From Planctomycetota bacterium (lineage in GTDB: Bacteria; Planctomycetota; Planctomycetia; Planctomycetales; Planctomycetaceae): DNA of 39,307 nucleotides. The translations under genes were made by a program, and so were the position numbers. The first letter of the stretch is position 1. Every line of letters begins with the position of its first letter. The notes beneath the pieces are model-generated. The model saw only the letters and a program-made list of their open reading frames with translations. It did no database searches and had not been told where the DNA came from. Below are positions 5,064 through 38,580 of this stretch, in pieces. The stretch covers positions 1 to 39,307 of the forward strand of contig QWQG01000158.1 in assembly GCA_003670925.1 (NCBI GenBank), given 5' to 3'.

Positions 5064-5957
5064 ATGCAGAACGTACCCGCCCTGCCTTTAATCTATGAAT
5101 TCAGCCGGACGGTTGCACCTCGATGTCGCATCGTTTCTGGAGAGACGATTCGGGTAGAGTCGGAAGACGCTTTGTCGGGCCAGATCCGCCGATTGGGTGA
5201 TCGGCGCGACAAGACAGCAATCCCGTTTAGTAATCCTGTGGCTGGGCCCATTATTGTGGATGGGGCTGAACCCGGAGATGAACTGGCGGTCACAATTGAG
5301 CAGATCGATTCCCGAGACGGCCAGTGTGCGACCTACACGGGTGCTCCTAAGCAACTCGCCGAATGGCTGGGAAGTGATGTCCCGCACGGGGCACATGTCT
5401 GTCCCATTCGCGAAGGTCAGATCTTCTGGAAGAATGACATCTGTATCCCTTATCAGCCGATGCTGGGCTGTATCGGCACGGCTCCCGACTGGGGTGTTCC
5501 GAGTACCGGACCCGCTGGCCCGCATGGCGGCAATCTTGATCTTGTCGAAGTCTGCCCGGGGAGCACGATTTTTCTGCCCGTCAAAGTGCCAGGAGGATAT
5601 CTGTACCTTGGAGACGCTCACGCGGCAATGGGCCATGGTGAGTTGTCGGCGACCGGTTTGGAGATGGCGGCGTATTCGACAGTGACTGTCAGAAGGATTC
5701 CTCGCTCTGGCCTCACGGGACTCCGCATCTCCCATGCAGAATATCTGATGTGCATCGCCACGCACGGCACGCTGGAAAGAGCCATCGCCGAGGCGTACGC
5801 GCAACTGATTCTCTGGATGGAAACAGATTATGCGTGGAACCGTTGGGATGCGTACGACTTGCTGACGCATGTGGGGCGGTTGTCAATTGGCTATTACGGC
5901 AGCGGGACGGTGGGAGCAAAAATTGAACGGCGGTATGTGGAGCGAAACAGTCGCTGA
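5064..5957 (+). CDS. Acetamidase/formamidase family protein (FmdA/AmdA)
   Basis: A 297-residue protein of the FmdA_AmdA family (PF03069), which hydrolyses formamide, acetamide or related short amides to ammonia and the acid. Characteristic segments are NPVAGPIIVDGAEPGD near residues 56-71 (the P-x-x-G-P-I-x-V-x-G-A motif), GPHGGNLD (about 151-158), and GDAHAAMGHGELSATGLEM (about 177-195), which is nearly diagnostic. An SIGYYGSGTVGAKIE segment lies close to the C-terminus. No signal peptide is present, so it is cytoplasmic. A TTG codon directly before the chosen ATG (TTGATG at 5061-5066) could also serve; the ATG is preferred. It is the first gene of a run with an amidohydrolase and a dimethylformamidase homologue, which supports an amide-degrading role. 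Confidence 0.88.
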   Translation: MQNVPALPLIYEFSRTVAPRCRIVSGETIRVESEDALSGQIRRLGDRRDKTAIPFSNPVAGPIIVDGAEPGDELAVTIEQIDSRDGQCATYTGAPKQLAEWLGSDVPHGAHVCPIREGQIFWKNDICIPYQPMLGCIGTAPDWGVPSTGPAGPHGGNLDLVEVCPGSTIFLPVKVPGGYLYLGDAHAAMGHGELSATGLEMAAYSTVTVRRIPRSGLTGLRISHAEYLMCIATHGTLERAIAEAYAQLILWMETDYAWNRWDAYDLLTHVGRLSIGYYGSGTVGAKIERRYVERNSR

Positions 5958-6034
5958 ACTTCTCGCCGACGGCCCAACCGCTTTTGCCTGCCAGTCGATC
6001 CGGACCGGTCTTTCGATTCCTCAGGGAGCAGCCG

Positions 6035-6946
6035 ATGCTGTTTGATACACACACCAACCTCATGTGGTACCCGGATCATCTTTCCGACGAATTCGTTGAG
6101 TTCGCGTGGGAGGCCAAGCGTGCCAAGATGAAGCTCTCGCCGGATGTCTATTTCGCGGGCAGCGACAGTCCGCAGGCCAACGCTTTTGATTCTCGCCCGG
6201 AACAGCTTCTGCAGGCCACTGCCGACGCGGATAAGGTGATCGTGTTTGGTATCAAAGCCCCGTTCTGCGGCATCAACGCCGACCAGGAACTGATCGCCAC
6301 GTTTGTCAAAGAACACTCAGACCGCTTCATTGGCTGGTGCTCGGTCGATCCGAACGATGCAGACTGTGTCGATCAACTGGAACACTATGTCAACAATCTG
6401 GGACTGCGCGGATTGAAGTGTTCGCCGATCTATCAGAACTGGGATCCGCAGGATCCCAAACACCTGCCGCTGTTCAGAAAAGCCGAGTCTCTCGGCATCC
6501 CTGTCAACATTCATCAGGGGACATCGTTTGTCCGACCAGGACCGCTCAAGTACGCCAATCCGATTCATCTGGAGGATATCGCATTGGCGTGTCCGGATTT
6601 GAGGATCGTCATCGCTCACATGGGACACCCCTGGGAAACCGAATGTGTCGTATTGATCCGCAAGCACCCGAACCTGTACGCGAACATTTCTGCTTTGCAC
6701 TACCGTCCGCTGCGACACTACCAGGCATTCATGACGGCCATGGAATACGGAGTGGAGCACAAACTCATCTTTGGTTCCGATTTCCCCTCAGCCACTCCTG
6801 CTCAGGTGATCGCCGGTCAGCACAAAGTGAACGACATCATCCGTGGAACCAATTTTCCGAAGATCCCGGACGAAATGATTCACAATATTATCTCCGAAAA
6901 CTGGAAACGGTTCCTGCCGGAGTATGCAGACGGACAGTGCCCTTGA
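6035..6946 (+). CDS. Amidohydrolase 2 family metal-dependent hydrolase
   Basis: A 303-residue TIM-barrel protein of the amidohydrolase-related group (PF04909; relatives include ACMSD-type decarboxylases and lactone hydrolases). The N-terminus reads LFDTHTN, a D-x-H-x-N form of the usual D-x-H-x-H metal motif, so one ligand position is altered. IPVNIHQG (about 167-174) supplies the mid-barrel His, RIVIAHMGHPW (about 198-208) the next His pair, and LIFGSDFPSATP (about 251-262) the Asp that polarises water. ATG 6035 is chosen because AGGGAG (6023-6028) is well placed upstream; the frame also extends back to a TTG at 5984. It follows the FmdA-type gene by 77 bases. The substrate is unknown; hydrolysis of an intermediate of the amide locus is plausible. 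Confidence 0.85.
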   Translation: MLFDTHTNLMWYPDHLSDEFVEFAWEAKRAKMKLSPDVYFAGSDSPQANAFDSRPEQLLQATADADKVIVFGIKAPFCGINADQELIATFVKEHSDRFIGWCSVDPNDADCVDQLEHYVNNLGLRGLKCSPIYQNWDPQDPKHLPLFRKAESLGIPVNIHQGTSFVRPGPLKYANPIHLEDIALACPDLRIVIAHMGHPWETECVVLIRKHPNLYANISALHYRPLRHYQAFMTAMEYGVEHKLIFGSDFPSATPAQVIAGQHKVNDIIRGTNFPKIPDEMIHNIISENWKRFLPEYADGQCP

Positions 6947-7117
6947 CGCGATTTCGACTGACTGCTGAGAGGATCAAATTCGCTCTCATTGTTTGCTTCC
7001 TGTGAGATGTGTGTGCTGCGCTAAGATGCGACGAAGTTTGATTCCGGTTGCCCTGCGTCGCGTACCGTGTACGATGCTGCGGAAATCACTCTTCCGTGCT
7101 TATCATAAGGGAAGAAC

Positions 7118-7672
7118 ATGCCCACAATTTTTCGCAGTCTGCTGGGATTGGCCGTATGTCTGCTTTTACCGACGGCATTTGCAATCGACACTCGGGCTGC
7201 AGAGATTCCGGACTACGAGTGGCAGCAGATTACCCCCCGGGAACAATGCTGGTCCGCGCGCGGCATGATTGGCGGAAGCGCCGTCATGAACGGTCGCATC
7301 TGGATCCTCGGTGGCGGGACTTACGATCCTCCGACGACACGACCCCGCAAATTTTATAATGATGTCTGGAGTTCAGCCGACGGAATCGACTGGCCCCGGC
7401 ACACCGCAGAGGCTCCTTGGTTTCCGCGAAAATCCTATGATGTGCCCATCTGGGACAATCCGCTCTGGGTGATAGAGGGATATCATGAGAAAGGCGGCAA
7501 GCGCAGCGATGTGTGGGACGCGCCCGACGGCATCCAGTGGACCGAACTCTCCGACACACCATGGAAGCCAAGACATGCGGCCAGCCTGGTGGTCCACAAC
7601 GGTTCGTTGTGGATGATCGCAGGAAACAATATGCAACCCGATGTGGGGCGCTTGACGCGGAAGTCGCGCTAG
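7118..7672 (+). CDS. Short secreted kelch-repeat protein
   Basis: A 184-residue protein with a signal peptide (hydrophobic LLGLAVCLLLPTAFA at about 6-20, cleavage near Ala-28). About three kelch-like modules follow: GRIWILGGGTYDPP, NDVWSSADGIDW (about 87-98) and LWVIEGYHEKGGKRSDVWDAPDGIQW. The tail SLWMIAGNNMQPDV resembles the end of planctomycete galactose-oxidase-like propellers. A closed propeller normally needs six or seven blades, so the protein is short. It either oligomerises, adopts a partial fold or has lost an internal segment. It lies between the amidohydrolase and the dimethylformamidase homologue on the same strand. AAGGGAAGA stands just upstream of ATG 7118. Function unknown. 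Confidence 0.7.
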   Translation: MPTIFRSLLGLAVCLLLPTAFAIDTRAAEIPDYEWQQITPREQCWSARGMIGGSAVMNGRIWILGGGTYDPPTTRPRKFYNDVWSSADGIDWPRHTAEAPWFPRKSYDVPIWDNPLWVIEGYHEKGGKRSDVWDAPDGIQWTELSDTPWKPRHAASLVVHNGSLWMIAGNNMQPDVGRLTRKSR

Positions 7673-7698
7673 CGCCTTGTTAAGACTTGATTTTTTGA

Positions 7699-7774
7699 GT
7701 AGGCCGGACCAAGCGGAGCGCGGTTCCGGCAGGTAGGCCAAGTGCCGAAACAACGCCCCGCTTGGTCCGGGCGA
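7699..7774. repeat. Nested hairpin element between the kelch and dimethylformamidase-like genes
   Basis: Perfect 13-base inverted arms CCGGACCAAGCGG (7704-7716) and CCGCTTGGTCCGG (7758-7770) enclose a second imperfect pair, GTTCCGGCA and TGCCGAAAC. The whole folds into one long nested hairpin. No T run follows, so it is not a normal terminator. It looks like a dispersed REP- or MITE-like intergenic repeat, although no second full copy is present in this window. Confidence 0.65.
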
Positions 7775-7799
7775 CAGATCTAGCTGAAAGGATATTGAA

Positions 7800-9440
7800 A
7801 TGCTGATTGGTTATGTGAGTGACGAACGTTACGTGGCGCTGGCTGACGTCCTGATTGAATTTCGGTCGGAGGGGCAGATGCGTGCGATCGTGCGTTCAAC
7901 GCCGCGAGGTGCGGTCGAGGCTGACTTAGATGCCGGTAAGTATGAAGTCACACTCGTCAAACAGGGCTATGGATCGAAACACTCACAGATGACGGTTCAT
8001 GCCGATCGTCCGCATCAGTTTCGTCTGCTGACCGATGGACTGCTTGGATATGTCTGGCCACGATCCGTGAAATCCGGCGAGCGTTCCGAGTTTCGCGTCC
8101 ACGCGACAGAACCGTATCGATTGAGTCTCTGGCGTTACGGGTGGAAACGGGAATTCGTGAAACTGCTGGGTTGGTTTGACGAACACGGCCCGCGTGCCGT
8201 GATGCAGATTCTTCCGGATGGAGATTTTACTCAGACCGGTGTCGGCTGGAACAAAGTGGGTTACGGCAATAGTCCGCATCACACGCAGTTTGTTGTCGGA
8301 CCGGAACGATCGGGGCTGTATTACCTGCATGCCAAGAGTGAGCAGACGGGGACATTTTTTTCGTTTCCTTGGGTTGTTGCGCCCGCGAAACCTCAGGCGA
8401 AGATCGCCGTCCTCGCCTCGACCAATACGTGGCTGGCCTATAACAACTTTGGTGGTCGCAGTAACTACATCAATGCGAATTGCCTCCCAGATACGCCCAT
8501 TGTAAATGCGCGCCAGGATCTCATTCGCTACACGGGAGCAGGAGCGTTCAATGCGTGGGGATTTCAGGACGAGGAGTATCTGCCGCTTTCATTCGAGCGA
8601 CCGGAACCGGGAAATGTCGTGCGGGAGCATGAGGAAGTGACCGATCCGATCGCCGGGCGACTGCCCTGCGGCATGGCCCCGGCCGAGTGGCGGCTGCTCG
8701 GCTGGCTCGAACGTGAAGATTTTCAATACGACTATTACTCCGAATTGCATCTCCACAATGGCGCGCTTGATCTGGATCAGTACACCATCCTGATGATCAG
8801 CGTACATCCTGAATACTGGTCCCGTGAAATGTATCTGCGTGTCAAGGAGTGGGTCTGGCAGCGCGGCGGAAAACTGATCTATCTCGGTGGAAACGGCCTG
8901 AATTGCGAAGTCGAGTTTCTAGGTGAAGATGCACTGAGTTTTAAGACGCATCTTGCTCCGGTGAACGGCAGCGAACTAGGGATGCCTGATCCGAAGAACC
9001 CGGACTTCTACTGCGATAGTCGGATGGCGCGCACGCTGGAGTCTGAGGCGAATCTGCTGGGTGTCGTCTGTACGGATTCCGGAATTATGACGGCTGCACC
9101 GTATAAAGTGCTCAACGCCGATCACTGGGTCTTTGCGGGCACTGGTTTAAACAACGGTGATCTGTTTGGCGAAAAGAGTCTGCAGGAACGAATTCCGGGA
9201 GGTGCGTCTGGGCATGAGACCGACAAACGCAGCCCGCATTCTCCACCGGGTACAGAACTGCTCGCTAAAGGCACAAACCCCGACGACGGCGGTGCAGAAA
9301 TCGTGTGTTACGAGACACCGAGTGGCGGGGCCGTGTTCTCAGTAGGATCGATCACTTGGGTCCCGTGTGTTCTCATCGACGATGCTGTCTCACGAATCAC
9401 CGCGAATGTTATCGCTCGCTACCTGATGAAGGAGCAGTAA
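7800..9440 (+). CDS. N,N-dimethylformamidase large (beta) subunit-like protein
   Basis: A 546-residue protein. An N-terminal beta-sandwich of about 80 residues resembles carboxypeptidase-regulatory-like domains (AGKYEVTLVKQGY). It is followed by a region resembling the large subunit of N,N-dimethylformamidase (DmfA2 type), the iron enzyme that cleaves dimethylformamide to dimethylamine and formate. Recognisable stretches are NTWLAYNNFGGRSNY (about 219-233), YDYYSELHLHNG (about 304-315), ISVHPEYWSREM (about 326-337) and KLIYLGGNGLNCE (about 351-363). His and Glu of HPEYW, with conserved Tyr residues, fit what I recall of the iron site; the exact ligand assignment is inference. No small (alpha) subunit gene is adjacent. 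No signal peptide is seen. GAAAGGA precedes ATG 7800. Confidence 0.8.
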   Translation: MLIGYVSDERYVALADVLIEFRSEGQMRAIVRSTPRGAVEADLDAGKYEVTLVKQGYGSKHSQMTVHADRPHQFRLLTDGLLGYVWPRSVKSGERSEFRVHATEPYRLSLWRYGWKREFVKLLGWFDEHGPRAVMQILPDGDFTQTGVGWNKVGYGNSPHHTQFVVGPERSGLYYLHAKSEQTGTFFSFPWVVAPAKPQAKIAVLASTNTWLAYNNFGGRSNYINANCLPDTPIVNARQDLIRYTGAGAFNAWGFQDEEYLPLSFERPEPGNVVREHEEVTDPIAGRLPCGMAPAEWRLLGWLEREDFQYDYYSELHLHNGALDLDQYTILMISVHPEYWSREMYLRVKEWVWQRGGKLIYLGGNGLNCEVEFLGEDALSFKTHLAPVNGSELGMPDPKNPDFYCDSRMARTLESEANLLGVVCTDSGIMTAAPYKVLNADHWVFAGTGLNNGDLFGEKSLQERIPGGASGHETDKRSPHSPPGTELLAKGTNPDDGGAEIVCYETPSGGAVFSVGSITWVPCVLIDDAVSRITANVIARYLMKEQ

Positions 9441-9460
9441 TGAGGTACGTCGATCTGTAG

Positions 9461-9480
9461 CCGGATTCGCAAGAATCCGG
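9461..9480. repeat. Perfect short hairpin after the dimethylformamidase-like gene
   Basis: CCGGATTC (9461-9468), loop GCAA, GAATCCGG (9473-9480): an 8-base perfect stem with a GNRA-type tetraloop, 20 bases after the stop codon. There is no T tract, so it may protect mRNA ends or be a REP-like unit. Confidence 0.6.
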
Positions 9481-9575
9481 ATCTGTTAATTCCTGAGAAC
9501 TTCCACCCGACTGATCCCGCAGATATGTTTATCCCGTTTTGTGTGAATCAATTTTAATGGAATCACAACAGCATC

Positions 9576-10694
9576 ATGAAAATCACTCAGATCGAAGCCA
9601 TTCCGGTATGTGTTCCGCTCAAAACGGGAATGACGGCAAAGACGGCGCACGGCGAGCATGCGACGTCGCCTTTTGTGATTGTGCGCGTGCACACCGATCA
9701 AGGACTGACGGGCCTCGGTGAAGCCACGGTGACGGCCTTATGGAGCGGCGAGACTCAGGCCACGGCGATGGCTGTGCTTCGCGACTGCATCGAACCCGTA
9801 CTGCTGGGGCGAGATCCGCGTGACATCACCGCGATTCGCCGTGCGATGGAGTTCGCGGTCAAGCTCAATCCGTTCACTCGTGCCGCGGTTGAAATGGCAA
9901 TGTGGGATATCGCCGGGAAGGCAGTCGGGCTTCCGGTCTATCAGTTGTTGGGCGGAAAAGTTCGTGATCGAGTCCGCATCAAGCTGGTCGTATGGGCTCG
10001 CGATATCGCAGGATCTCGCCGCATGGCAGAACAGCATTTGGCCCTCGGAGTGACCTGCGTCAAAGTTAAAACGGGACTGGATCCTGTCACTGACATTGCG
10101 CGCGTCAGGGCCGTGCGGGAAGTCTGCGGTCCCGACATTCCCGTGACAATTGACGCAAACTGTGGATGGACCATTCAACAGGCGCACTACTGTCTGCGCG
10201 AACTTCAAGATGTGAATTTGTTGCTCGCAGAGCAACCGATTCCGCCCGGTGATCATGCGGCTATGGCGGAACTTCGGCGCGCGACATCGACGCCTCTGAT
10301 GGCAGACGAAAGCATTTTCACGCTGCAGGATGCATGGCTCCTCGCAAATCACCGCGCGGTGGATGTGTTCAGCATTTATCCCGGGAAGCATGGAGGGATC
10401 GCTGCCACGGGCGATATCGTGGCCATCGCGCGAGCCGCCGGACTTCGCTGCACCATTGGCAGTAATCTGGAACTGGGAGTGGGCACCGCCGCGATGCTGC
10501 ATGTGGCCGCAGCATTTCCGGAAGTAGACGTCGATGCATTTCCGGCTGACACAATCGGGCCGTTGTATCATGACACAGATCTGCTCACTCAGCCGTTGAA
10601 TCTGGGACCTCCGTCGGCGATCGTGCCTGATGGTCCGGGACTCGGAGTTGAACTGGATGAAAAGCTGCTGCAGCGATACCGGGTCGACCGCTGA
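9576..10694 (+). CDS. Mandelate racemase/muconate lactonizing enzyme family protein (enolase superfamily)
   Basis: A 372-residue enolase-superfamily enzyme. The N-terminal capping domain (about 1-120) includes ITQIEAIPVCVPLK and GLTGLGEATVT. The barrel carries the MLE-type active site: CVKVKTG with Lys163 and Lys165, metal ligands Asp193 (TIDANCGW), Glu219 (LLAEQP) and Asp244 (MADES), and Lys271 (YPGKHGG) at the end of the sixth strand. The KxK plus opposite Lys pattern is that of the muconate-cycloisomerase and dipeptide-epimerase subgroups rather than mandelate racemase, which uses a His-Asp dyad. These enzymes abstract an alpha proton of a carboxylate and catalyse cycloisomerisation, epimerisation or dehydration; the substrate is not predictable. 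It is flanked by the dimethylformamidase homologue and an MFS transporter. Confidence 0.92.
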   Translation: MKITQIEAIPVCVPLKTGMTAKTAHGEHATSPFVIVRVHTDQGLTGLGEATVTALWSGETQATAMAVLRDCIEPVLLGRDPRDITAIRRAMEFAVKLNPFTRAAVEMAMWDIAGKAVGLPVYQLLGGKVRDRVRIKLVVWARDIAGSRRMAEQHLALGVTCVKVKTGLDPVTDIARVRAVREVCGPDIPVTIDANCGWTIQQAHYCLRELQDVNLLLAEQPIPPGDHAAMAELRRATSTPLMADESIFTLQDAWLLANHRAVDVFSIYPGKHGGIAATGDIVAIARAAGLRCTIGSNLELGVGTAAMLHVAAAFPEVDVDAFPADTIGPLYHDTDLLTQPLNLGPPSAIVPDGPGLGVELDEKLLQRYRVDR

Positions 10695-10751
10695 ATCAGG
10701 TTCGACACTTCCATTTCAGAGTTTTATACTCCACGCGGGCAAGATGGAGAG

Positions 10752-10840
10752 AATTGGCGAGCGGCATCCGTCACCTTGCCGTTACAAAAACGAGGTACCA
10801 GAGGGCTGACGCCGCTCCGCTCGCCGGAATCATTTCTGGC
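10752..10840 (+). repeat. Dispersed 89-base repeat, copy A
   Basis: This copy aligns without gaps to the reverse complement of 19784-19872, with about 15 mismatches over 89 positions (about 83% identical). The unit is built of nested inverted repeats. The outer pair is of the type GGCGAGCGG ... CCGCTCGCC and the inner pair centres on the G-G-T-A-C core. It lies between the enolase-superfamily gene and the transporter gene. Confidence 0.8.
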
Positions 10841-10905
10841 CGCGCGAACTATATATTCACTGCCAACAATATTCACTGCCAACATCTTCAGCGAAGGATC
10901 ATGTT

Positions 10906-12303
10906 ATGCCGCAGCCGCCGGACAGCGACGCATCCGACAATCCTTCGACAGCACACGACCAGCAGGAATTCAACCCCTATGCCGCTCAATGGCCTGTCGA
11001 TGATGATGGGATGGCTGCCTCCTCGACGATGACCAGAGCTCGTTTCAAAGTGCTTGGCATGCTCTGCTTGTTGTCCGGCGTTCTCTATCTAGATCGCATC
11101 TGTATTTCAGCTGCTGTCGATTCTATCCAGACTGATCTGAAGATCTCAAACACGCAGACCAGCTATGTGCTGATGGCGTTTACGCTGGCATACGGACTGT
11201 TTGAAATTCCCACCGGTCGCTGGGGAGATCGATTGGGAGCTCGACGAGTGCTCACGAGAATTTCTCTGTGGTGGTCAGCGTTTACGGCGTTAACAGGGGC
11301 CTGCACGGGGTTCTGGATGCTCGTGGGAGTCCGATTCATGTTCGGGGCTGGCGAAGCAGGTGCGTTCCCCAATGTGGCCCGCGTCATGTCACGCTGGTTT
11401 CCCGACCACGAACGCGGGCGTGCTCAGGGAGTGCTCCTCGCGGCGTCCCAAGTTGGAGGTGCATTGGCGCCGTTTCTGGCGGCGATGCTGATTCAGGAAA
11501 TCGGATGGCGCTGGACGTTTGTGGCGTTCGGAAGTGTTGGGGCCGTTTGGGCTGCAGGATTCTACGTCTGGTTTCGTGATGACCCGGCAGATCATGAAGC
11601 GGCGAACGCGGCGGAAGTCGCATACATCGGACGTGGTGCTTCGGCTTCCAATGTGCATGCGCAAATTCCCTGGGCTCTTGTGGCGGGAAATCCGAGTATC
11701 TGGTTTCTGAGCTTGATCATGGCCTGCGGTTCCTTCAACAGCTACATCTACTTCTCTTGGTTCCCCAAGTATCTGAAGTCAGGGCGAGGCGTTGAAGTGA
11801 CGGAAGCCGGGCTGATGGCGTCGATGGTCTTGGCCTTTTCGGCAGCGGGAACTCTGGCGGGAGGTTACCTCCTGGACTGGTTTGCCTCGCGCGGCGGGAT
11901 CGGCAGAAAACGTCTGCTAGGAGCCTGCTCATTCTTTCTCGCGTCCGCCATGCTAGGGTGTGGTCTGCTTTCCGGCAATCCGTGGCTTGCGGCCTTTTTC
12001 GCAGCCCTATCCTGTTTTGCCACTCAGGCCACCCAACCGCTGTGGTGGACGTGCTCGATCGGCATCAGCGGAAAACACATCGGCGCACTGTTTGGATTGA
12101 TGAACTCGGTCGGTGTCTTTGGTGCATTAAGCTCGCAATACTTGGTCGGAAAACTCGCCGACCTGCTGGGCGCAAGAGGATTCACTGGACGGGCTCAGTG
12201 GGATCCTATTTTCTACATCAACATGGGTGTTCTGATTGTCGCCGGACTTCTCTGGTCTTCGTTCGTATTCAAAACCGTCGAGGAACGCGATGCCGATCAT
12301 TGA
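10906..12303 (+). CDS. MFS transporter, probably anion:cation symporter (ACS) type
   Basis: A 465-residue major facilitator with about 12 helices. A cytoplasmic N-terminal extension of about 45 residues contains FNPYAAQW, an NPY-type motif often seen near the N-terminus of planctomycete membrane proteins. Family features are LYLDRICISAA at the end of helix 1, GRWGDRLGARRVL (MFS motif A, between helices 2 and 3), FGAGEAGAFPNVARVMSRWFPDHERGRA (helix 4 and loop, typical of organic-anion and sugar-acid ACS transporters) and GFYVWFRDDPADH after helix 6. Family knowledge suggests proton- or sodium-linked uptake of a carboxylate or sugar acid. Placement after a catabolic gene run fits uptake of its substrate. 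Its last 14 bases overlap a second start codon at 12290. An alternative start is Met37 (11014). Confidence 0.9.
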   Translation: MPQPPDSDASDNPSTAHDQQEFNPYAAQWPVDDDGMAASSTMTRARFKVLGMLCLLSGVLYLDRICISAAVDSIQTDLKISNTQTSYVLMAFTLAYGLFEIPTGRWGDRLGARRVLTRISLWWSAFTALTGACTGFWMLVGVRFMFGAGEAGAFPNVARVMSRWFPDHERGRAQGVLLAASQVGGALAPFLAAMLIQEIGWRWTFVAFGSVGAVWAAGFYVWFRDDPADHEAANAAEVAYIGRGASASNVHAQIPWALVAGNPSIWFLSLIMACGSFNSYIYFSWFPKYLKSGRGVEVTEAGLMASMVLAFSAAGTLAGGYLLDWFASRGGIGRKRLLGACSFFLASAMLGCGLLSGNPWLAAFFAALSCFATQATQPLWWTCSIGISGKHIGALFGLMNSVGVFGALSSQYLVGKLADLLGARGFTGRAQWDPIFYINMGVLIVAGLLWSSFVFKTVEERDADH

Positions 12304-12616
12304 TGTCCACAGCCGTTCCAGTGCCCTGTCTCTAACGCTGATTGACGATCCGATGTACAACGCACATCGAATGCGGCTACTGCCAGACTCCACAGACTGG
12401 TCCATCTATTCTCCGAATGTTCCGATCTTCCGTTCCGACGATGGTACTAAACTTTCTGAGTCTTGGCAGTTGAGCTTTATCACATGCGCTGCTCCGTATG
12501 CTCCCGAAATCGGCCAACCTGCGTCCGGTGAACTTCTGCAAGTTCGCATTCATCGGGTACTGGCGATCGCACGAGCGTCCGGTTCATGCAAGATTACGCC
12601 GAAAACCGGGTGCTAG
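12290..12616 (+). pseudogene. Chimeric remnant: start of a lost gene fused to a microbial poly(ADP-ribose) glycohydrolase fragment
   Basis: The frame begins at ATG 12290, overlapping the transporter end by 14 bases as in a coupled operon gene. The first residues MPIIDVHS are the typical beginning of an amidohydrolase (D-x-H metal motif). From about 12312 the text changes to RSSALSLTL, then IYSPNVPIFRSDDG, LSFITCAAP and RVLAIARA. These are successive conserved segments of the bacterial-type PARG family (TIGR02452). The N-terminal macro-domain part with the catalytic Gly-Gly-Gly and Gln-Glu-Glu loop is absent, and the C-terminal part is lost after about 12582. At 108 residues it is a non-functional remnant. 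The amidohydrolase reading of the first eight codons is an inference from a short match. Confidence 0.65.
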
Positions 12617-13815
12617 CGCACAATGCCACACACTTTGGTTTCTCAGGTTGGGTTTGTTGTGGTTTCTGTTCTTGTTTTTGATTTTCGAGCTTCATGAACT
12701 TGGTGGATTTTTGTCGTCGCGGGTGAGCCTTGCGTTTGTAGCTTGGATCGGGGCGGTTTGGTAGTTCGCCTTTCGCTGCGATTTGAAGAGCATCGTTGTA
12801 GCGGGTCTGCCATTCTGACAACGAACACGGTGGCTGGTTCAGAAGGAAACTTCGAAATGTGTACCACACCTCTTTGAAGCTCAGACGACGCGGAGCCAGC
12901 TTCGCGACTTCTGCCGCCTGACGACGAAACTGGATCACAAGGTTGTAAGCCACCACCGACGTCAGCAACTCTTTCTTCATCATGTCCACACTGCGACACC
13001 TCAGATTCTCAAGAGACAGACTCACTTTCAGATCGCGAATATCATGTTCCACATCATAACGTCGTGACAAAACTCAGCCGCATGTTCGGCACTGATTCCC
13101 AACGTTGTCACAAGGTACAGCGTCTCGCCGTTATCGAGTTCGACCTCATGCAGAAACACGTCCACGCTGGCATCAGTCGGAAGATCACCGACTTCGGCGG
13201 TATGCGTTTGGCAAGGCTGCGAGCCAGTCTTGCTTCGGACGTATTGCCGTCGCCGTACATCGCGCCCACTTCAGGAGGCAGCGCGGCACCGCTCTGAAGT
13301 TCATGCGCGACCAGCATCAGCATTACTGGCCAGACTGTTTCTCCGTGCTGATTGACGGCCGGCGGAAAGACTTTTCGCAGCTCGCTGGTCGGGCTGAGCG
13401 TCATCGGAGTGCCGTCAATGTTGAAGGCTCGCAGATCGCCGAACCAAGACGGTGTCTGCTGAACGAAGGATTCGCAGACACGGCTGGCAAAAAGTTCGAC
13501 GACTTCCAGTGGCAAGCCTTGTCTCGCCCCGCTGTAGGCTCCGGACTTTTGGGAGAGCGTCATTTCCCGCACACGTTTGTTATCAGGCAGCAGTTGCCGA
13601 CTGTTGCTCAGCACATCTTTGACAACTTCGATATTTGTTTTGCCTTTTCCAAGTCTCTGCAGAATGAGCATCCAGATGGTGATGCTTGCCGTGTAAACCG
13701 TGGCAGGTCCGGTAGGTGCCAGCAGTTCCAGCTCTTCGTCCGGGATGATGGCTCTGAGCATTTCGATGGCCGCCGTCAGCTCAGAGTCCGAGAACATGCA
13801 TTCCTTTTCAGCCAT
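12594..13815 (-). pseudogene. IS4-type transposase, frameshifted and internally deleted
   Basis: The coding start is ATG at 13815 (MAEKECMFSDSEL). The frame runs through FNIDGTPMTLSP, which holds the first catalytic Asp, to about 13180. There KSV joins directly to DLPTDASVDVFLHEVELDNG in another frame, suggesting loss of the segment that should hold the second catalytic Asp. A second frame change near 13065-13075 leads to SRRYDVEHDIRDLK, which matches the IS4 Y-R-E-K signature with the catalytic Glu retained and the initial Tyr changed to Leu. The rest (KELLTSVVAYNLVIQFRRQAAE) is typical of planctomycete IS4 transposases. The last residues are Lys/Gln-rich and the stop is at 12594. It cannot make an active enzyme. 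Confidence 0.8.
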
Positions 13816-13925
13816 GATTTGACACCTGACATTAAGGCAGCTGGTCCACGTTTTTCTCGCGGCCGGCGCAAATGTCCCGCCAAAAATCGCCTTTCTGAAA
13901 TCTATTTCCAAAGTGAGTACGATTG
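12594..13925 (-). mobile_element. Decayed IS4-family insertion sequence
   Basis: The element contains the broken transposase gene. Candidate terminal inverted repeats are CAATGCCACACACTTTGG (12621-12638) and the reverse complement of 13908-13925, matching at about 14 of 18 positions with the strongest identity in CACTTTGG. If these are the true ends, the last codons of the transposase frame run into flanking DNA. No convincing target duplication is visible. The right end directly abuts a truncated copy of the dispersed repeat and the left end abuts the PARG remnant, so the region has been rearranged. Confidence 0.7.
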
Positions 13926-34190: not shown

Positions 34191-37100
34191 TTGCGACTCA
34201 TTTGCGTTACCATGAATTTCTGCACGATAATCAGCGCGCTCTTACTTTGTGGCGGTCAGGCTAGCCCCGCAAATGCGAGCGTCCAAGACGATGCGACTTG
34301 GTTTCGCGACAAGGTCGAACCTGTTCTTCGTAAGCGCTGCTTCGCTTGTCATTCTCATGCCGCTGAGTTGATGAAAGGCGGTCTGTCGCTGGATTGGCGG
34401 AGCGGTTGGGAAACAGGGGGCAGTCGCGGACCTGCAATTGTGCCGGGTGATGTTGAAAATAGTCTGCTTATCCGAGCGATCCGGCACGCCGATGCTGATT
34501 TCCAGATGCCGGAAGAGAAATTGCCGGATGATGAGATTGCCACGCTTACGCATTGGGTTCAGACCGGGGCCTTTGATGACCGTCAGACCATTCCGATCGG
34601 TGTGAGTGATGCTCACGCGATGGACTGGTGGTCGCTCAAACCACTCACGCAACCTGCAGTGCCGGGCGACGGTTTGCAGAATCCGATTGATGCGTTCATT
34701 CAAAGTCGGTTGCAGCAAGCAGGTCTAACACCGTCCCCCGAAACTGATCGACGATCTTTGATCCGACGCGTGTACTATGATCTAACCGGCCTGCCTCCGA
34801 CACCACAAGAGGTCGCAGCGTTTGTGGCAGATCTCGATCCGCTCGCGTACGAAAAGATTGTGGACATGTTGCTGGCGACGCCACGTTACGGCGAACGCTG
34901 GGCACGACATTGGTTGGATACGATCCACTTTGCGGATTCACATGGCTACGAACACGATGTTGGGCGCGACAATGCTTGGCCGTTTCGGGATTACGTAATT
35001 GATGCGTTCAACCGGGACACACCATGGACGCGTTTTGTGCGTGAACAACTGGCGACAGATGTTTTCTATCCAGACGAAACGGGTCTCACCCCGGCGCTTG
35101 GGTTTCTGGGCGCTGGCACGTTTGATCTAAGTACCTTTAGCACTGCGCCGGTGACGTTTAGTTATCTTGATCGTGACGATCTCGTGGCTCAAACAATGTC
35201 AGCGTTCACCAGCACCACCGCTAACTGTGCACGTTGTCACGCGCACAAGTTTGATCCGATCACGCAGGAAGATTATTACGCACTGCAGGCCGTATTTGCG
35301 GGTGTGCTGAAAGGTGACATCTCTTATGACCCCGATCCGGACATCGGACGGGAACGGCATCGGCTGCAGTCTTTAATGGCAGCTGCCGAACGACGCGACG
35401 AGAACATCTTGCTTGATCCCGTAAATGCAGAACTGATCGCTTCGTGGGTTACCGAACGTATCGATGATGCGACATGGCAACCGCTGGAGTTGGCGACGTT
35501 TCTGTCGACAGAGGGTGCATCCTTGACCTTGACGCAGGATAACGTGATTTTGGCCAGCGGGACGTTGCCGGATAAGGACATTTATGTCGTCAATGCTGCC
35601 ACAAATCTGAAGCAGATCAACGCATTGCGGCTGGATGTCTTTCCGCACGAATCTTTGCCGTCGAACGGTCCAGGCCGCTGCAGTAACGGCAATCTGCATT
35701 TATCGGAAATTCAACTTCAGATTTTAGCCCCGAGTGCTGACCAAGGAACAATTGCATTATTTAAACGAGCGACAGCCGATTTCAATCAGGTCGACTGGGG
35801 AATCGAACGCGCCATCGATGGCGACCCGGAAACGGCATGGGGAGTTCATCCGGCAGTCGGGACAAGGCATCATGCAGTGTTTGAGCTCACTGAACCGTTA
35901 ATGCTCGCGGCTGACAGTCGGCTGGTTGTCACGTTGAAACAACTGCATGGGCGAGCGCATCTGATTGGCGCCTTTAGTCTGTCGGTGACGTCTAATGCGG
36001 CTGCGCAGGCAACAGTTCAGCCTGTAGATGTCACACAGGCCTTGCAAACGCCCGCTCTCGAACGTACCTCAGCCCAGCAGTTGCTGCTGGCCGCCACAGC
36101 GCTGCGGGCGACGGCAGAAGTGGAACTCCAAAAACTGCCGCCGCCAGCAAAAGTTTATGCAGCAGGTTCAGCAGTGATCATTCCTACGGGAAATGGCGCC
36201 AAGCAGACACAGGCCCTCATGGAACCTAAAGTCGTGCATGTCCTAGAACGCGGCGACTTTGACAAACCGCAAAACGTTGTCGTGCCCGGTGCGTTGTCGG
36301 CTCTCACACATGCAGCCGCACGTTTCAGGATCAAAGATTCACAGCACGAAGCCTCACGCCGCGCGGCACTGGCAGATTGGTTGGTGCACCGCGAAAATGT
36401 ACTCACTTGGCGGAGTATCGTGAATCGCGTCTGGCATTATCATTTTGGACGGGGATTGTGTGATACGCCGAGTGATTTTGGCCGAATGGGCGGCGTGCCA
36501 TCGCATCCGGAATTGCTGAACTGGCTGGCCGTCTGGTTTCGTGACGAGGCAAACGGATCATTGAAGCAGCTGCATCGACTCATCGTTACCAGTGCGACGT
36601 ATCGACAATCATCGCAGCACCTAGACGACGGATCTGAAATCGACGCCGACAATCGATTGCTGTGGCGGCAGAACCGTCACCGTCTGGACGCGGATTCGTA
36701 TCGTGACTTCACGCTGGCAGCCTCTGAGTCGCTGGACCTGACCATGGGCGGTCCCGGCGTTCAGCATTTCAGCCAGAGCAAAGGGCCGCAGTCAACGCCC
36801 GCACTGGACTATACCGCATTCGATTGGAACACTCCCGGCGCATCACGTCGCAGCATCTATCGCTGCGTCTGGCGCGGCATCGCTGATCCGTTTATGGAAG
36901 CACTCGACTTCCCTGATCTTGGATTGCTGTCGCCGACGCGCAGTTTCTCCGCATCGTCACTTCAGGCACTTACGCTCTACAACAATGACTTTGTATTGCA
37001 CTCCGCGGAACGAATGGCTGCAAAAATTCAGCGAGCAAACGACACACTGGAATCTCAGGTAACACGAGTTGTCCGATTGGTCTGGCTTCGCGAACCCACG

Positions 37101-37202
37101 AGTGACGAACTGCAAGCTTTTAGCAAGTTTGCCGATACCAACGGGCTCCCTGCACTATGCCGACTGCTACTCAACAGCAACGAGTTTTTGTTTGTTGACT
37201 GA
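34191..37202 (+). CDS. Planctomycete cytochrome/DUF1549/DUF1553 (PSD1) protein
   Basis: A 1003-residue exported protein. After a signal peptide (about 1-30) comes the PSCyt1 domain with heme motif CFACH (about 49-53). DUF1549 follows, including IDAFIQSRLQQAGLTPS, LTGLPPTPQEVAAF and RYGERWARHWLDTIHFADS. A second C-x-x-C-H (CARCHAHKFDP) lies near residue 345. A discoidin-like insertion spans about 500-600 (WGIERAIDGDPETAWG). DUF1553 occupies the C-terminal third (LVHRENVLTWRSIVNRVWHYHFGRGLCDTPSDFG). The family is abundant in planctomycetes and usually sits next to a DUF1501 gene; none is found here. Function is unproven; links to polysaccharide breakdown and electron transfer are proposed. TTG 34191 is chosen because AGGGTGAG is upstream and it supplies a basic residue before the signal peptide; ATG 34212 is the alternative. 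Confidence 0.9.
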   Translation: MRLICVTMNFCTIISALLLCGGQASPANASVQDDATWFRDKVEPVLRKRCFACHSHAAELMKGGLSLDWRSGWETGGSRGPAIVPGDVENSLLIRAIRHADADFQMPEEKLPDDEIATLTHWVQTGAFDDRQTIPIGVSDAHAMDWWSLKPLTQPAVPGDGLQNPIDAFIQSRLQQAGLTPSPETDRRSLIRRVYYDLTGLPPTPQEVAAFVADLDPLAYEKIVDMLLATPRYGERWARHWLDTIHFADSHGYEHDVGRDNAWPFRDYVIDAFNRDTPWTRFVREQLATDVFYPDETGLTPALGFLGAGTFDLSTFSTAPVTFSYLDRDDLVAQTMSAFTSTTANCARCHAHKFDPITQEDYYALQAVFAGVLKGDISYDPDPDIGRERHRLQSLMAAAERRDENILLDPVNAELIASWVTERIDDATWQPLELATFLSTEGASLTLTQDNVILASGTLPDKDIYVVNAATNLKQINALRLDVFPHESLPSNGPGRCSNGNLHLSEIQLQILAPSADQGTIALFKRATADFNQVDWGIERAIDGDPETAWGVHPAVGTRHHAVFELTEPLMLAADSRLVVTLKQLHGRAHLIGAFSLSVTSNAAAQATVQPVDVTQALQTPALERTSAQQLLLAATALRATAEVELQKLPPPAKVYAAGSAVIIPTGNGAKQTQALMEPKVVHVLERGDFDKPQNVVVPGALSALTHAAARFRIKDSQHEASRRAALADWLVHRENVLTWRSIVNRVWHYHFGRGLCDTPSDFGRMGGVPSHPELLNWLAVWFRDEANGSLKQLHRLIVTSATYRQSSQHLDDGSEIDADNRLLWRQNRHRLDADSYRDFTLAASESLDLTMGGPGVQHFSQSKGPQSTPALDYTAFDWNTPGASRRSIYRCVWRGIADPFMEALDFPDLGLLSPTRSFSASSLQALTLYNNDFVLHSAERMAAKIQRANDTLESQVTRVVRLVWLREPTSDELQAFSKFADTNGLPALCRLLLNSNEFLFVD

Positions 37203-37539
37203 ACAAAACGCATCCGCAAAGCCCAAATCGAAAGTGAGTCACTCAAAAGTCCGTGAAAGGCATCGCAGAATAAGAGCAACGCAATCCCAGTTTGACGATT
37301 GGGAAAGGCTAATCTGTCGACGATTGAGATTTGATCTTGATTCTCCGCAGCTCAAGGAGCGACGTTACCTGCCTAGTCAGTCGCTCTGCAACGGTGATTT
37401 TCGGGAGAAACCGCGGCTTTTGTTGCCACGTTTTGGCAATCTCAAACTTGCCGCATGGTTGCGTTCGAAAGTTGCGGCAATTCCCTCTATTGTTTGGCTG
37501 CTCGCCTTTTCTCCTGAACCTGATTGTTATCGGTTTTTC
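37203..37539 (+). other. Leader region before the ZIP transporter gene
   Basis: About 340 bases. The ZIP reading frame stays open through this stretch and back into the preceding gene, but the translation has no motif and lacks natural composition. I treat it as non-coding. TCCCA and TGGGA at 37288-37307 form a small inverted repeat. No riboswitch or clear promoter is recognised. Confidence 0.4.
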
Positions 37540-38580
37540 ATGTCGTTTCGCATCGTTGTTACCGTTGTTACCTTATTGATGGCCGGAGGTTCTTTGTCTC
37601 AGGGGGCTGATGAGACAGTCGCGCTGGAGGCGTTTGAGAGTGACACGCTGTCGTTATTCAAGCACGACGATGCGGTGACGATTATGGCAGATCGATCGCA
37701 GTCTCTGATTGTACTCATCGGGTATTGTGCTGCAATTATGGCGGCGTCGGTTGGGGGAGGCTGGTTGCCTTCGATCTTTCGACTCACGCATACGCGAATG
37801 CAGACGACGATCAGTTTTGTCGGTGGACTGATGCTGGGAATCGCCGTCTTTCATTTGCTGCCACATTCGGTTCACGGAGACAATTCAATCGACGATTCTG
37901 CTTGGTGGATGATGGCAGGCATCCTCACAATGTTCCTCCTGATTCGTTGTTTTCATTTTCATCACCACGGCCCGCTGGAGATCTCGACCGCGCAGGAAGA
38001 TCCGTGTGCCGGTCATGATAGTCACGACCATGACCATAAACGCAGTTCACAGGCGTTACCCGTGATTGGGCAGCCGTATTGTCATCATGCGCATCAACTC
38101 AGCTGGCTGGGAATCGCAATCGGCCTGTCGCTGCACACGCTGATTGATGGAATCGCTTTGGCCGCAAGTGTTGAGGCCGACGCCAAGTATCCGTCACAAA
38201 TGGTATTTTACGGTCTTGGTACATTTCTGGCGATCATGCTCCACAAACCGCTCGATGCCGTTTCGATCACTTCATTAATGGCTGGCAGCGGCTGGAAGAG
38301 TAGATCGCGATTCCTTGTGAACCTTATCTTTGCCACAATGTGTCCGATCGGAGCCGCGTTATTTGTCCTCGGAATTAGGCAGTTCAGTGGAATGCAGGAC
38401 ACCGTGGTGTGTGCGGTAGTTGCTTTTTCTGCTGGCGTATTTTTATGCATCGCCTTAAGCGATTTGTTGCCAGAAATGGAATTCCATTCGCACAATCGAT
38501 TCCGTCTGACCGTGGCTCTTACGGCCGGGGTCTTACTGGCCTATGGAATCACATTTCTGGAACCACCCCATCTGCATTGA
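37540..38580 (+). CDS. ZIP family metal transporter
   Basis: A 346-residue membrane protein of the ZIP (Zrt/Irt-like) family. A hydrophobic N-terminus (SFRIVVTVVTLLMAGGSLSQGA) may be a signal peptide or first helix. About eight helices follow. The metal-path helices contain GIAIGLSLHTLIDGIALA (H-x-x-x-D motif, helix 4) and AIMLHKPLDAVSI (helix 5, H-K-x-x-D replacing the more common H-E). His-rich loops lie between helices 3 and 4 (HFHHHG; HDSHDHDHK), typical of zinc- or manganese-sensing segments. The C-terminus IALSDLLPEMEFH matches helix 7 and its exit. The predicted role is import or export of a divalent metal such as Zn2+. ATG 37540 is chosen because the family homology begins after it. 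Confidence 0.85.
   Translation: MSFRIVVTVVTLLMAGGSLSQGADETVALEAFESDTLSLFKHDDAVTIMADRSQSLIVLIGYCAAIMAASVGGGWLPSIFRLTHTRMQTTISFVGGLMLGIAVFHLLPHSVHGDNSIDDSAWWMMAGILTMFLLIRCFHFHHHGPLEISTAQEDPCAGHDSHDHDHKRSSQALPVIGQPYCHHAHQLSWLGIAIGLSLHTLIDGIALAASVEADAKYPSQMVFYGLGTFLAIMLHKPLDAVSITSLMAGSGWKSRSRFLVNLIFATMCPIGAALFVLGIRQFSGMQDTVVCAVVAFSAGVFLCIALSDLLPEMEFHSHNRFRLTVALTAGVLLAYGITFLEPPHLH

Follow-up and report, generated by a model that had tools for sequence, protein, structure and literature searches.

The closest described counterparts of the protein considered here are two amide hydrolases. The first is dimethylformamidase (DMFase) of Paracoccus, DmfA1A2, for which the published structure report describes iron ligands Y399, Y440 and E521, an essential H519, loss of both iron and activity in the Y440A and E521A mutants, and a large subunit that contains a pentraxin domain (domain II) and is inactive without the small subunit; the same report calls the iron site unique and two of the enzyme's folds of unknown evolutionary origin (PMC7686228). 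The second is N-acetyl-(R)-beta-phenylalanine acylase (8huy). A relative of both is encoded in the DNA analyzed here, a 39,307-nucleotide contig (C226, henceforth referred to as the window) of the 5.78-Mb genome of a Planctomycetota bacterium. Six plus-strand genes at positions 5064–12303 encode, in order, an FmdA/AmdA-superfamily amidase, an Amidohydro_2 hydrolase (AHY), a kelch protein (KEL in gene orders), the DMFase-large-subunit-like protein (DMF in gene orders), an MLE-type enolase and an MFS transporter. The locus is read here, with about even confidence, as a catabolic island, modular, often rearranged and in part decayed, that would serve an amide-bearing carboxylate, with catabolism of the amide or N-acyl-amino-acid type; that the cluster is directed at amides in some form is likely. 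No description of the cluster or of this DMFase-fold branch was found in the open-licence library searched; DMFase-fold hydrolases are known, and the single-chain branch lacking the second tyrosine, with its module, appears to be undescribed there.

The DMFase-like protein contains a carboxypeptidase-regulatory-like domain (residues 1–78), an Ig-like domain (~79–195) and a catalytic domain (~200–546). Residues 79–546 of its structure model (mean pLDDT 89.5) superimposed on DMFase (6lvb) with a Z-score of 34.2 (2.5 Å, 385 residues, 25% identity) and on the acylase with a Z-score of 34.6 (383 residues, 28% identity in the structural alignment), and the next match had a Z-score of 16.8. Foldseek placed the same two proteins at the top (E 2.8e-18), with TM-scores of only 0.48–0.52 over long gapped alignments (0.51 of the query for 6lvb), and the acylase was also the best profile match (E 1.1e-25). 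An earlier reading of the DNA, made from its letters only (the sequence-only reading), had proposed a DMFase-large-subunit-like protein with an added N-terminal beta-sandwich. The fold score and the PF20254 match bear out the first part, and the added domain is real, since model residues 1–79 matched carboxypeptidase-type domains, with a best Z-score of 9.5 over 76 residues (a carboxypeptidase N domain).

In contrast to DmfA1A2, with which it shares the Ig-like and catalytic domain fold of the large subunit, the window protein carries this extra N-terminal domain, has other gene partners, and leaves no room in its 546 residues for the pentraxin domain, which is inserted in domain I of DMFase; model residues 79–546 span residues 4–758 of the DMFase chain with 385 aligned. 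The acylase differs from the window protein in its length of 772 residues and in a tyrosine (ATYN) in the Y440 region. By analogy, the likeness to the acylase suggests that the DMFase-like protein could hydrolyze N-acyl amides. The absence of an adjacent small subunit, also part of the sequence-only reading, was confirmed and extended by a search of the window's whole genome for a DmfA1-like small subunit, in which the best match had an E-value of 0.24 (13 bits, on another contig) and a very divergent subunit could have escaped detection. Small open reading frames (ORFs) sit just upstream of the DMFase-like genes of two other loci (L157 and L158), which lie beyond that search of the window's genome.

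Conservation of the metal site was counted over an alignment of 60 sequences, one of which is the window protein. The residues corresponding to Y399, H519, E521 and E657 (Y214, H336, E338 and E473) are invariant, and that of N547 (N365) is kept in 59 of the 60; E657 presumably has a catalytic role in DMFase. The catalytic histidine is thus present as H336, whereas the 2-Tyr-1-Glu iron site is incomplete: Y214 and E338 are kept, and the Y440 position is W253 by HHalign and MAFFT and F255 by the A1 profile, with no alignment giving tyrosine. Of the three iron ligands, Y399 and E521 are retained, as is the catalytic H519, and Y440 is not. Under the HHalign/MAFFT placement, column 253 contains Trp in 44 sequences (window included), Tyr in 10 and Phe in 6. 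Tyrosine occupies the Y440 column in 6 of 10 further family members (pAMI2, Rhodococcus, Mycobacterium, Agrobacterium, Roseomonas and Microvirga); the other four have Trp (Streptomyces), Leu (Rhizobium CB3090), Val (Haloferax) and a gap (a second homologue of the window's genome), which indicates that the tyrosine was lost outside the window's branch as well. The loop at this position was modeled with moderate confidence (block-mean pLDDT 72 and 85), and a nearby tyrosine, such as Y260 (Tyr in 55 of the 60), may take the place of Y440.

The amidase matched PF03069 with 87.4 bits (cut-off 27), which places it in the FmdA/AmdA acetamidase/formamidase family (5ubu, 2ii1, 2wkn), whose PHGGNLD and GDAHAAMGHGE motifs it shares; 5ubu is its best solved relative (E 4.5e-46). 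Motif residues H155, N158, D160, D185, H187 and E194 (numbered from TTG 5061) are kept in 20–21 of 21 related ORFs. It differs from described members in forming a short 297-residue branch that scores far under the cut-off of the NCBIfam formamidase equivalog NF045496 (66 against 500 bits). These results bear on the chemistry that the sequence-only reading found coherent, in which dimethylformamidase gives formate and an amine and FmdA acts on formamide, and hence on the proposal of dimethylformamide or formamide utilization as in Paracoccus. The DMFase fold, most of the active-site residues and an adjacent formamidase-superfamily amidase are indeed present. The proposal is nevertheless unsupported and very improbable, because the small subunit needed for DMFase activity was not found in the genome, the formamidase score is below its cut-off, the pentraxin domain is missing, and no tyrosine occupies the Y440 position, where replacement by Ala deprived DMFase of iron and activity (PMC7686228).

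Conserved co-occurrence in relatives was proposed with the sequence-only reading as a check on the gene set, and it was found (L-numbers below denote loci and G-numbers genomes, G000 being the window's own). Of 150 genomes from the order, 115 contain homologues of the DMFase-like gene (E ≤ 1e-3); 13 genomes, the window's included, hold copies of at least 72% identity, and most other strong matches are 53–64% identical. On the loci fetched for these 13, several of which lie on contigs that end early, the partners were FmdA (9), AHY (9), kelch (9), a DHDPS-like gene directly beside DMF (8), MFS (6, or 7 with a neighboring block in G052), MLE (5) and creatininase (4). The complete order FmdA-MFS-AHY-kelch-DHDPS-like-DMF-creatininase-MLE was observed in L040 and L042, and parts of it in others. 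The window is without the DHDPS-like and creatininase genes held by relatives, and its MLE and MFS genes are part of another block, which G109 and G055 carry as MLE-MFS-AHY2 (AHY2 being a second Amidohydro_2 gene). These varying orders, contigs and partner subsets make the window one of many arrangements of a modular set. A divergent DHDPS-like paralogue (52%) of the window's genome lies on another contig (G000:C128; L142, 2490–4389), where it adjoins a gene for the one-carbon-transfer enzyme formylmethanofuran:tetrahydromethanopterin formyltransferase (FTR). In G109, a 2-oxoacid dehydrogenase E1 fusion and an E2 acyltransferase (L148, contig G109:C227, 194–3623) lie ~4 kb upstream of the MLE-MFS-AHY2 block. 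Tandem DMFase-type genes were seen in L037 (G043:C90), G097:C18 and G115:C261; the match of the second tandem gene breaks at about residues 377–413 of the window protein, as though this gene lacked the segment.

Co-location within 10 kb was counted over the 150 genomes using 39 MLE matches (at least 53% identity), 54 AHY matches in 53 genomes (at least 76% identity, plus four partial matches), 59 AHY2 matches (36–42%) and 110 DMF matches. AHY lay near 20 of the 39 MLE matches (0.08 expected), DMF near 12 of the 39 (0.15 expected) and DMF near 19 of the 54 AHY matches (0.20 expected); the corresponding counts were 10/39 for MLE-AHY2 and 6/59 for AHY2-DMF. The expected values are rough chance figures that assume uniform placement in 7.2-Mb genomes and ignore relatedness, with contig ends counted as misses, and the observed counts are far above them. 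Among 19 genomes picked for the DMFase-like gene, 17 had FmdA-family matches and 11 had an FmdA gene within 7 kb of DMF; MR_MLE_C (8–32 matches) and creatininase (1–7) were present in all 19.

A neighborhood formed by chance, that is, an accretion of independently mobile catabolic genes with no joint function, would suit the three separate contigs on which the set lies in G109, the shortened kelch gene, cut AHY2 and PARG fragment of the window described below, and the many DMF copies, a majority, that have no MLE and AHY nearby. It is improbable, since these families are found together again and again, in changing orders and also in other phyla, much more often than the rough chance figure predicts, and five of the six genes, all except kelch, are under purifying selection (dN/dS 0.029–0.101 against G109, the nearest relative by DMF identity).

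Scanning named genomes yielded 406 stretches encoding DMF relatives, of which the best 80 (59–94% identity) were counted. The titles of their records name Planctomycetota, Chloroflexi, Acidobacteria, Latescibacterota, Poribacteria, Actinomycetota and others, and such titles may be wrong for metagenome-assembled genomes (MAGs; the first of the 80 is titled Kuenenia). Partners labeled by BLAST at 1e-10 on called ORFs were MLE in 26 of these best 80 of 406 loci (above 100 bits in 24), creatininase in 17, MFS in 17, AHY in 16, DHDPS in 13 and FmdA in 9, with MLE and creatininase together in 11 and one or more of the five partner families MLE, creatininase, AHY, FmdA and DHDPS in 43. The counts are lower bounds because the ORF caller labeled DMF in just 72 of the 80, and these loci are not independent of the planctomycete set above because several contigs are identical (e.g. 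L059 and L039).

Tight gene overlaps were observed in two other bacterial groups and beyond, with start codons in L097 and L108 taken from the ORF caller or the alignment and not proven. In an Acidobacteria MAG (L097), an FmdA-family ORF (32% identical, ending at 9995) overlaps DMF (starting at 9992) by 4 bases. In a Rhizobium-titled MAG (L108), creatininase (8042–8830) overlaps MLE (8827–9942) by 4 bases; after a short gap DMF follows (first aligned residue at 10001), its end at 11602 overlaps an ABC ATPase starting at 11599, and a family-5 binding protein and permeases of a dipeptide-ABC set lie upstream. Three Chloroflexi loci (L085, L086, L091) have the same 4-base creatininase/MLE overlap next to DMF.

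Plasmids carry the DMFase-like protein as well. A Microvirga plasmid encodes a full-length homologue (50%) beside M20, a Dpp-type ABC transporter and Amidase, and plasmid pHGLR3 of the archaeon Haloferax gibbonsii (L140, 10889–12514) encodes one of 47% that is annotated just as a carboxypeptidase-like regulatory domain protein, with a family-5 ABC binding protein/transporter, an M81 peptidase, two thiamine-pyrophosphate enzymes and an aminotransferase as neighbors. Six further plasmid regions were inspected, and ABC transport genes stand beside the DMFase-like gene in three (Agrobacterium, with a transporter only; Roseomonas; and Rhizobium CB3090, with two peptidases in addition); in the Rhodococcus region it sits beside glutaminase and gamma-glutamyl-GABA hydrolases. 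DMF proteins are 90% identical across genera whose other copies are 53–64% identical, which together with the plasmid copies suggests horizontal spread of these genes.

Under the preferred amide-catabolic reading, the MFS protein would import a small, amide-containing organic anion, for which a carboxylic (amino-)acid bearing an N-acyl or N-substituted amide is the likeliest candidate. As a soluble stand-alone metalloenzyme, the DMFase-like protein would cut the amide of the imported substrate, and the FmdA-superfamily enzyme would cut a second, simpler amide and release ammonia. The MLE-type enolase would act at the carbon beside the carboxylate, by racemization or elimination, enabling further steps, and the Amidohydro_2 enzyme would hydrolyze another ring, lactone or amide bond, or decarboxylate. 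The preference rests on the recurrent linkage and on coupling to FmdA-type, creatininase-type and peptide-transport genes; in addition, the closest solved relatives of the DMFase-like protein both hydrolyze amides, homologues on several plasmids neighbor amide or peptide hydrolases and ABC transporters for peptides or amino acids, and five of the genes are under purifying selection. The sequence-only reading had tentatively joined the genes in one pathway, and the recurring subsets in other planctomycete genera and the 4-base overlaps in other groups support this. The families, the fold, the conservation of catalytic residues, the repeated co-location and the selection on five genes are observed, and the joint reactions, their order, the metal and the substrate are what we infer. 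Enolase-superfamily racemases of SAR202 have been proposed to open chirally complex organic matter (PMC6946804); this fits the MLE partner by analogy and is not evidence for the cluster.

Several observations weigh against this reading. Gene composition varies between loci: in G109 the set is divided among three contigs (FmdA-AHY, KEL-DMF and MLE-MFS-AHY2), G055 has a 15-kb stretch that reads AHY-KEL-MLE-MFS-AHY2 with neither FmdA nor DMF, and the window lacks creatininase, a partner of MLE and DMF elsewhere. Seen from DMF, MLE lies within 10 kb in 15 of 110 matches and AHY in 22 of 110; among the best 80 of the 406 named loci, 54 have no labeled MLE and 37 none of the five partner families. 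The Streptomyces and Mycobacterium plasmid regions showed no amide-hydrolase set (the latter has transporters), and no activity measured on a close relative is known to us. Finally, part of the partner genes, namely KdgD-like DHDPS, galactonate-type MFS, RraA and aldo/keto reductase, point to sugar acids.

The last point leads to catabolism of a sugar acid or cyclitol, which is a serious though less probable alternative. In such a route, the MFS protein would import an aldonate-like acid, MLE would dehydrate or cycloisomerize it, AHY would open a lactone, the DHDPS-like enzyme of relatives would finish as an aldolase or dehydratase, the kelch protein would be a secreted mutarotase-like or lectin-like protein, and the amidase-like proteins would have other roles. 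DHDPS-family genes near DMF in L077, L079 and L082 scored 255–266 bits with the 5-dehydro-4-deoxyglucarate dehydratase model (cut-off 278), the L040 creatininase also matched the inosose-hydrolase IolN model (67 bits, cut-off 245), the window's MFS protein matched the D-galactonate transporter model TIGR00893 (230 bits, cut-off 395), and RraA-like and aldo/keto reductase neighbors are scattered over other loci. Every one of these scores is under its cut-off, however, and a KdgD-type DHDPS gene is missing from the window. Two or three amide-hydrolase families per cluster would also need another explanation, and several plasmid homologues sit with peptide or amino-acid transporters and peptidases. 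Sialic-acid utilization sets combine kelch, DHDPS and MFS proteins and thereby resemble the relatives' clusters in kind; amidases and MLE are not known to be part of that pathway, and the DHDPS-like gene of L040 scored 19.1 bits with Pfam DHDPS (cut-off 22.1) and had no NCBIfam match at 1e-10.

Returning to the amide reading, we tentatively propose, with somewhat less than even confidence, a broader meaning. A large, unstudied single-polypeptide branch of the DMFase fold, which does without the small subunit and whose metal site has been remodeled (one Tyr, one Glu and perhaps His, the second Tyr lost), may form the core of a mobile amide-catabolic module. The module would combine it with MLE, creatininase-type, FmdA-type and Amidohydro_2 enzymes in varying subsets across Planctomycetota, Chloroflexota, Acidobacteriota and Alphaproteobacteria, the protein itself occurring also on a haloarchaeal plasmid, and would give access to amide-bearing organic matter for which no pathway has yet been assigned. 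The cluster and the recurrence of its parts in other bacteria suggest that amide-containing organic matter is used by a route still undescribed. Because the branch retains the fold together with the catalytic His and Glu but has neither small subunit nor second Tyr, it tests which features DMFase chemistry needs, and the recurrent neighborhood supplies concrete partners for finding the natural substrate, possibly a widely used form of organic nitrogen.

The remaining enzymes of the window were assigned to families. Members of the MLE subgroup are defined by a KxK motif on strand 2, three acidic metal ligands and a lysine on strand 6. The window protein has all of these (K163, K165, D193, E219, D244 and K271, aligned with the Ala-Glu epimerase 1jpm), and therefore shares both catalytic lysines and the three metal ligands with 1jpm, 2qde and the muconate cycloisomerases; the strand-6 lysine is kept in 35 of 47 related ORFs, and dN/dS against G109 is 0.029. 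Its scores lie under the cut-off of every NCBIfam model listed for it, including that of the muconate/chloromuconate cycloisomerase TIGR02534 (238 against 335 bits). An attempt to name the MLE substrate from its best solved relative failed, and no substrate could be named for the amidase, AHY or MLE. AHY matched 3irs weakly and keeps H6, K128, H160, H195, H198 and D249. Amidohydro_2 proteins usually carry an N-terminal HxH motif; AHY has Asn at the second position (HxN), a column with Asn in 22, His in 15 and a gap in 2 of 39 ORFs, a count that covers the window and duplicate contigs. Against G109, dN/dS is 0.063 for AHY, 0.087 for the amidase and 0.101 for MFS.

The kelch gene described by the sequence-only reading is present, with a weak kelch match and a signal-like N-terminus, and proved to be a shortened remnant in which the leader is joined to the second half of the full-length gene: it encodes 184 residues against 355 in G051 and 356 in G109, 172 fewer than the G109 copy. 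Its dN/dS against G109 is 0.233 (dS 0.43), compared with 0.029–0.101 for the five other genes. Values of 0.124 against L040 and 0.057 against L149 were obtained at dS 1.6 and 2.7, near saturation, and two intact kelch pairs gave 0.088 and 0.053 at dS 1.7–1.9; faster evolution of the remnant is therefore shown by the G109 comparison only.

All six same-strand genes were recovered as the families first named (FmdA_AmdA, Amidohydro_2, a weak kelch match, DMFA2_C, MLE and MFS_1), and a seventh, AHY2, was added, which starts at 12291 and is cut off (Table 1). The MFS gene runs into the first AHY2 codons, and similarity to G109 and G055, where this junction is intact, stops at ~12312. A recount reproduced the intergenic gaps of 77–211 bases, in order 77, 171, 127, 135 and 211 (ATG starts 5064 and 6035 taken). 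The early caution that several transcripts may be involved stands; promoter-like sites (3 against 4.1 in shuffles) and terminator-like sites (3 against 7.2) were no commoner than in shuffles, which is no evidence on operon structure either way.

Table 1 Genes of the amide-related locus in the window.
Feature	Position	Strand	Length and basis
FmdA/AmdA-superfamily short amidase	5064..5957	+	297 aa from ATG 5064; alternative TTG 5061; PF03069
Amidohydro_2 metal-dependent hydrolase AHY	6035..6946	+	303 aa; PF04909 122 bits
Kelch gene remnant, signal-like N-terminus	7118..7672	+	184 aa; two-part match to full-length relatives
DMFase-large-subunit-like hydrolase	7800..9440	+	546 aa; PF20254 (DMFA2_C) 186 bits
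Enolase-superfamily, MLE-subgroup enzyme	9576..10694	+	372 aa; PF02746 (MR_MLE_N)/PF13378 (MR_MLE_C)
MFS transporter, galactonate-transporter-like	10906..12303	+	465 aa; PF07690 (MFS_1) 196 bits
AHY2 start, second Amidohydro_2 gene, cut off	12291..12312	+	DNA comparison with L148, L149

Other features of the window were also recorded. Directly after the cut AHY2 start comes part of a PARG catalytic domain of the microbial type (PF10021, 28 bits; 12236–12616), and after it two minus-strand ORFs (12594–13911) have the look of a broken transposase by eye, with no Pfam match at 1e-5. Between kelch and DMF, a repeat-like stretch (7695–7770) matches the G109 locus L039 (2804–2879) at 78% in inverted orientation. 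Farther along, positions 34191–38580 encode a ZIP zinc transporter and a planctomycete cytochrome/DUF1549/DUF1553 protein; when each ORF is taken from its first start codon, the two overlap by 134 bases.

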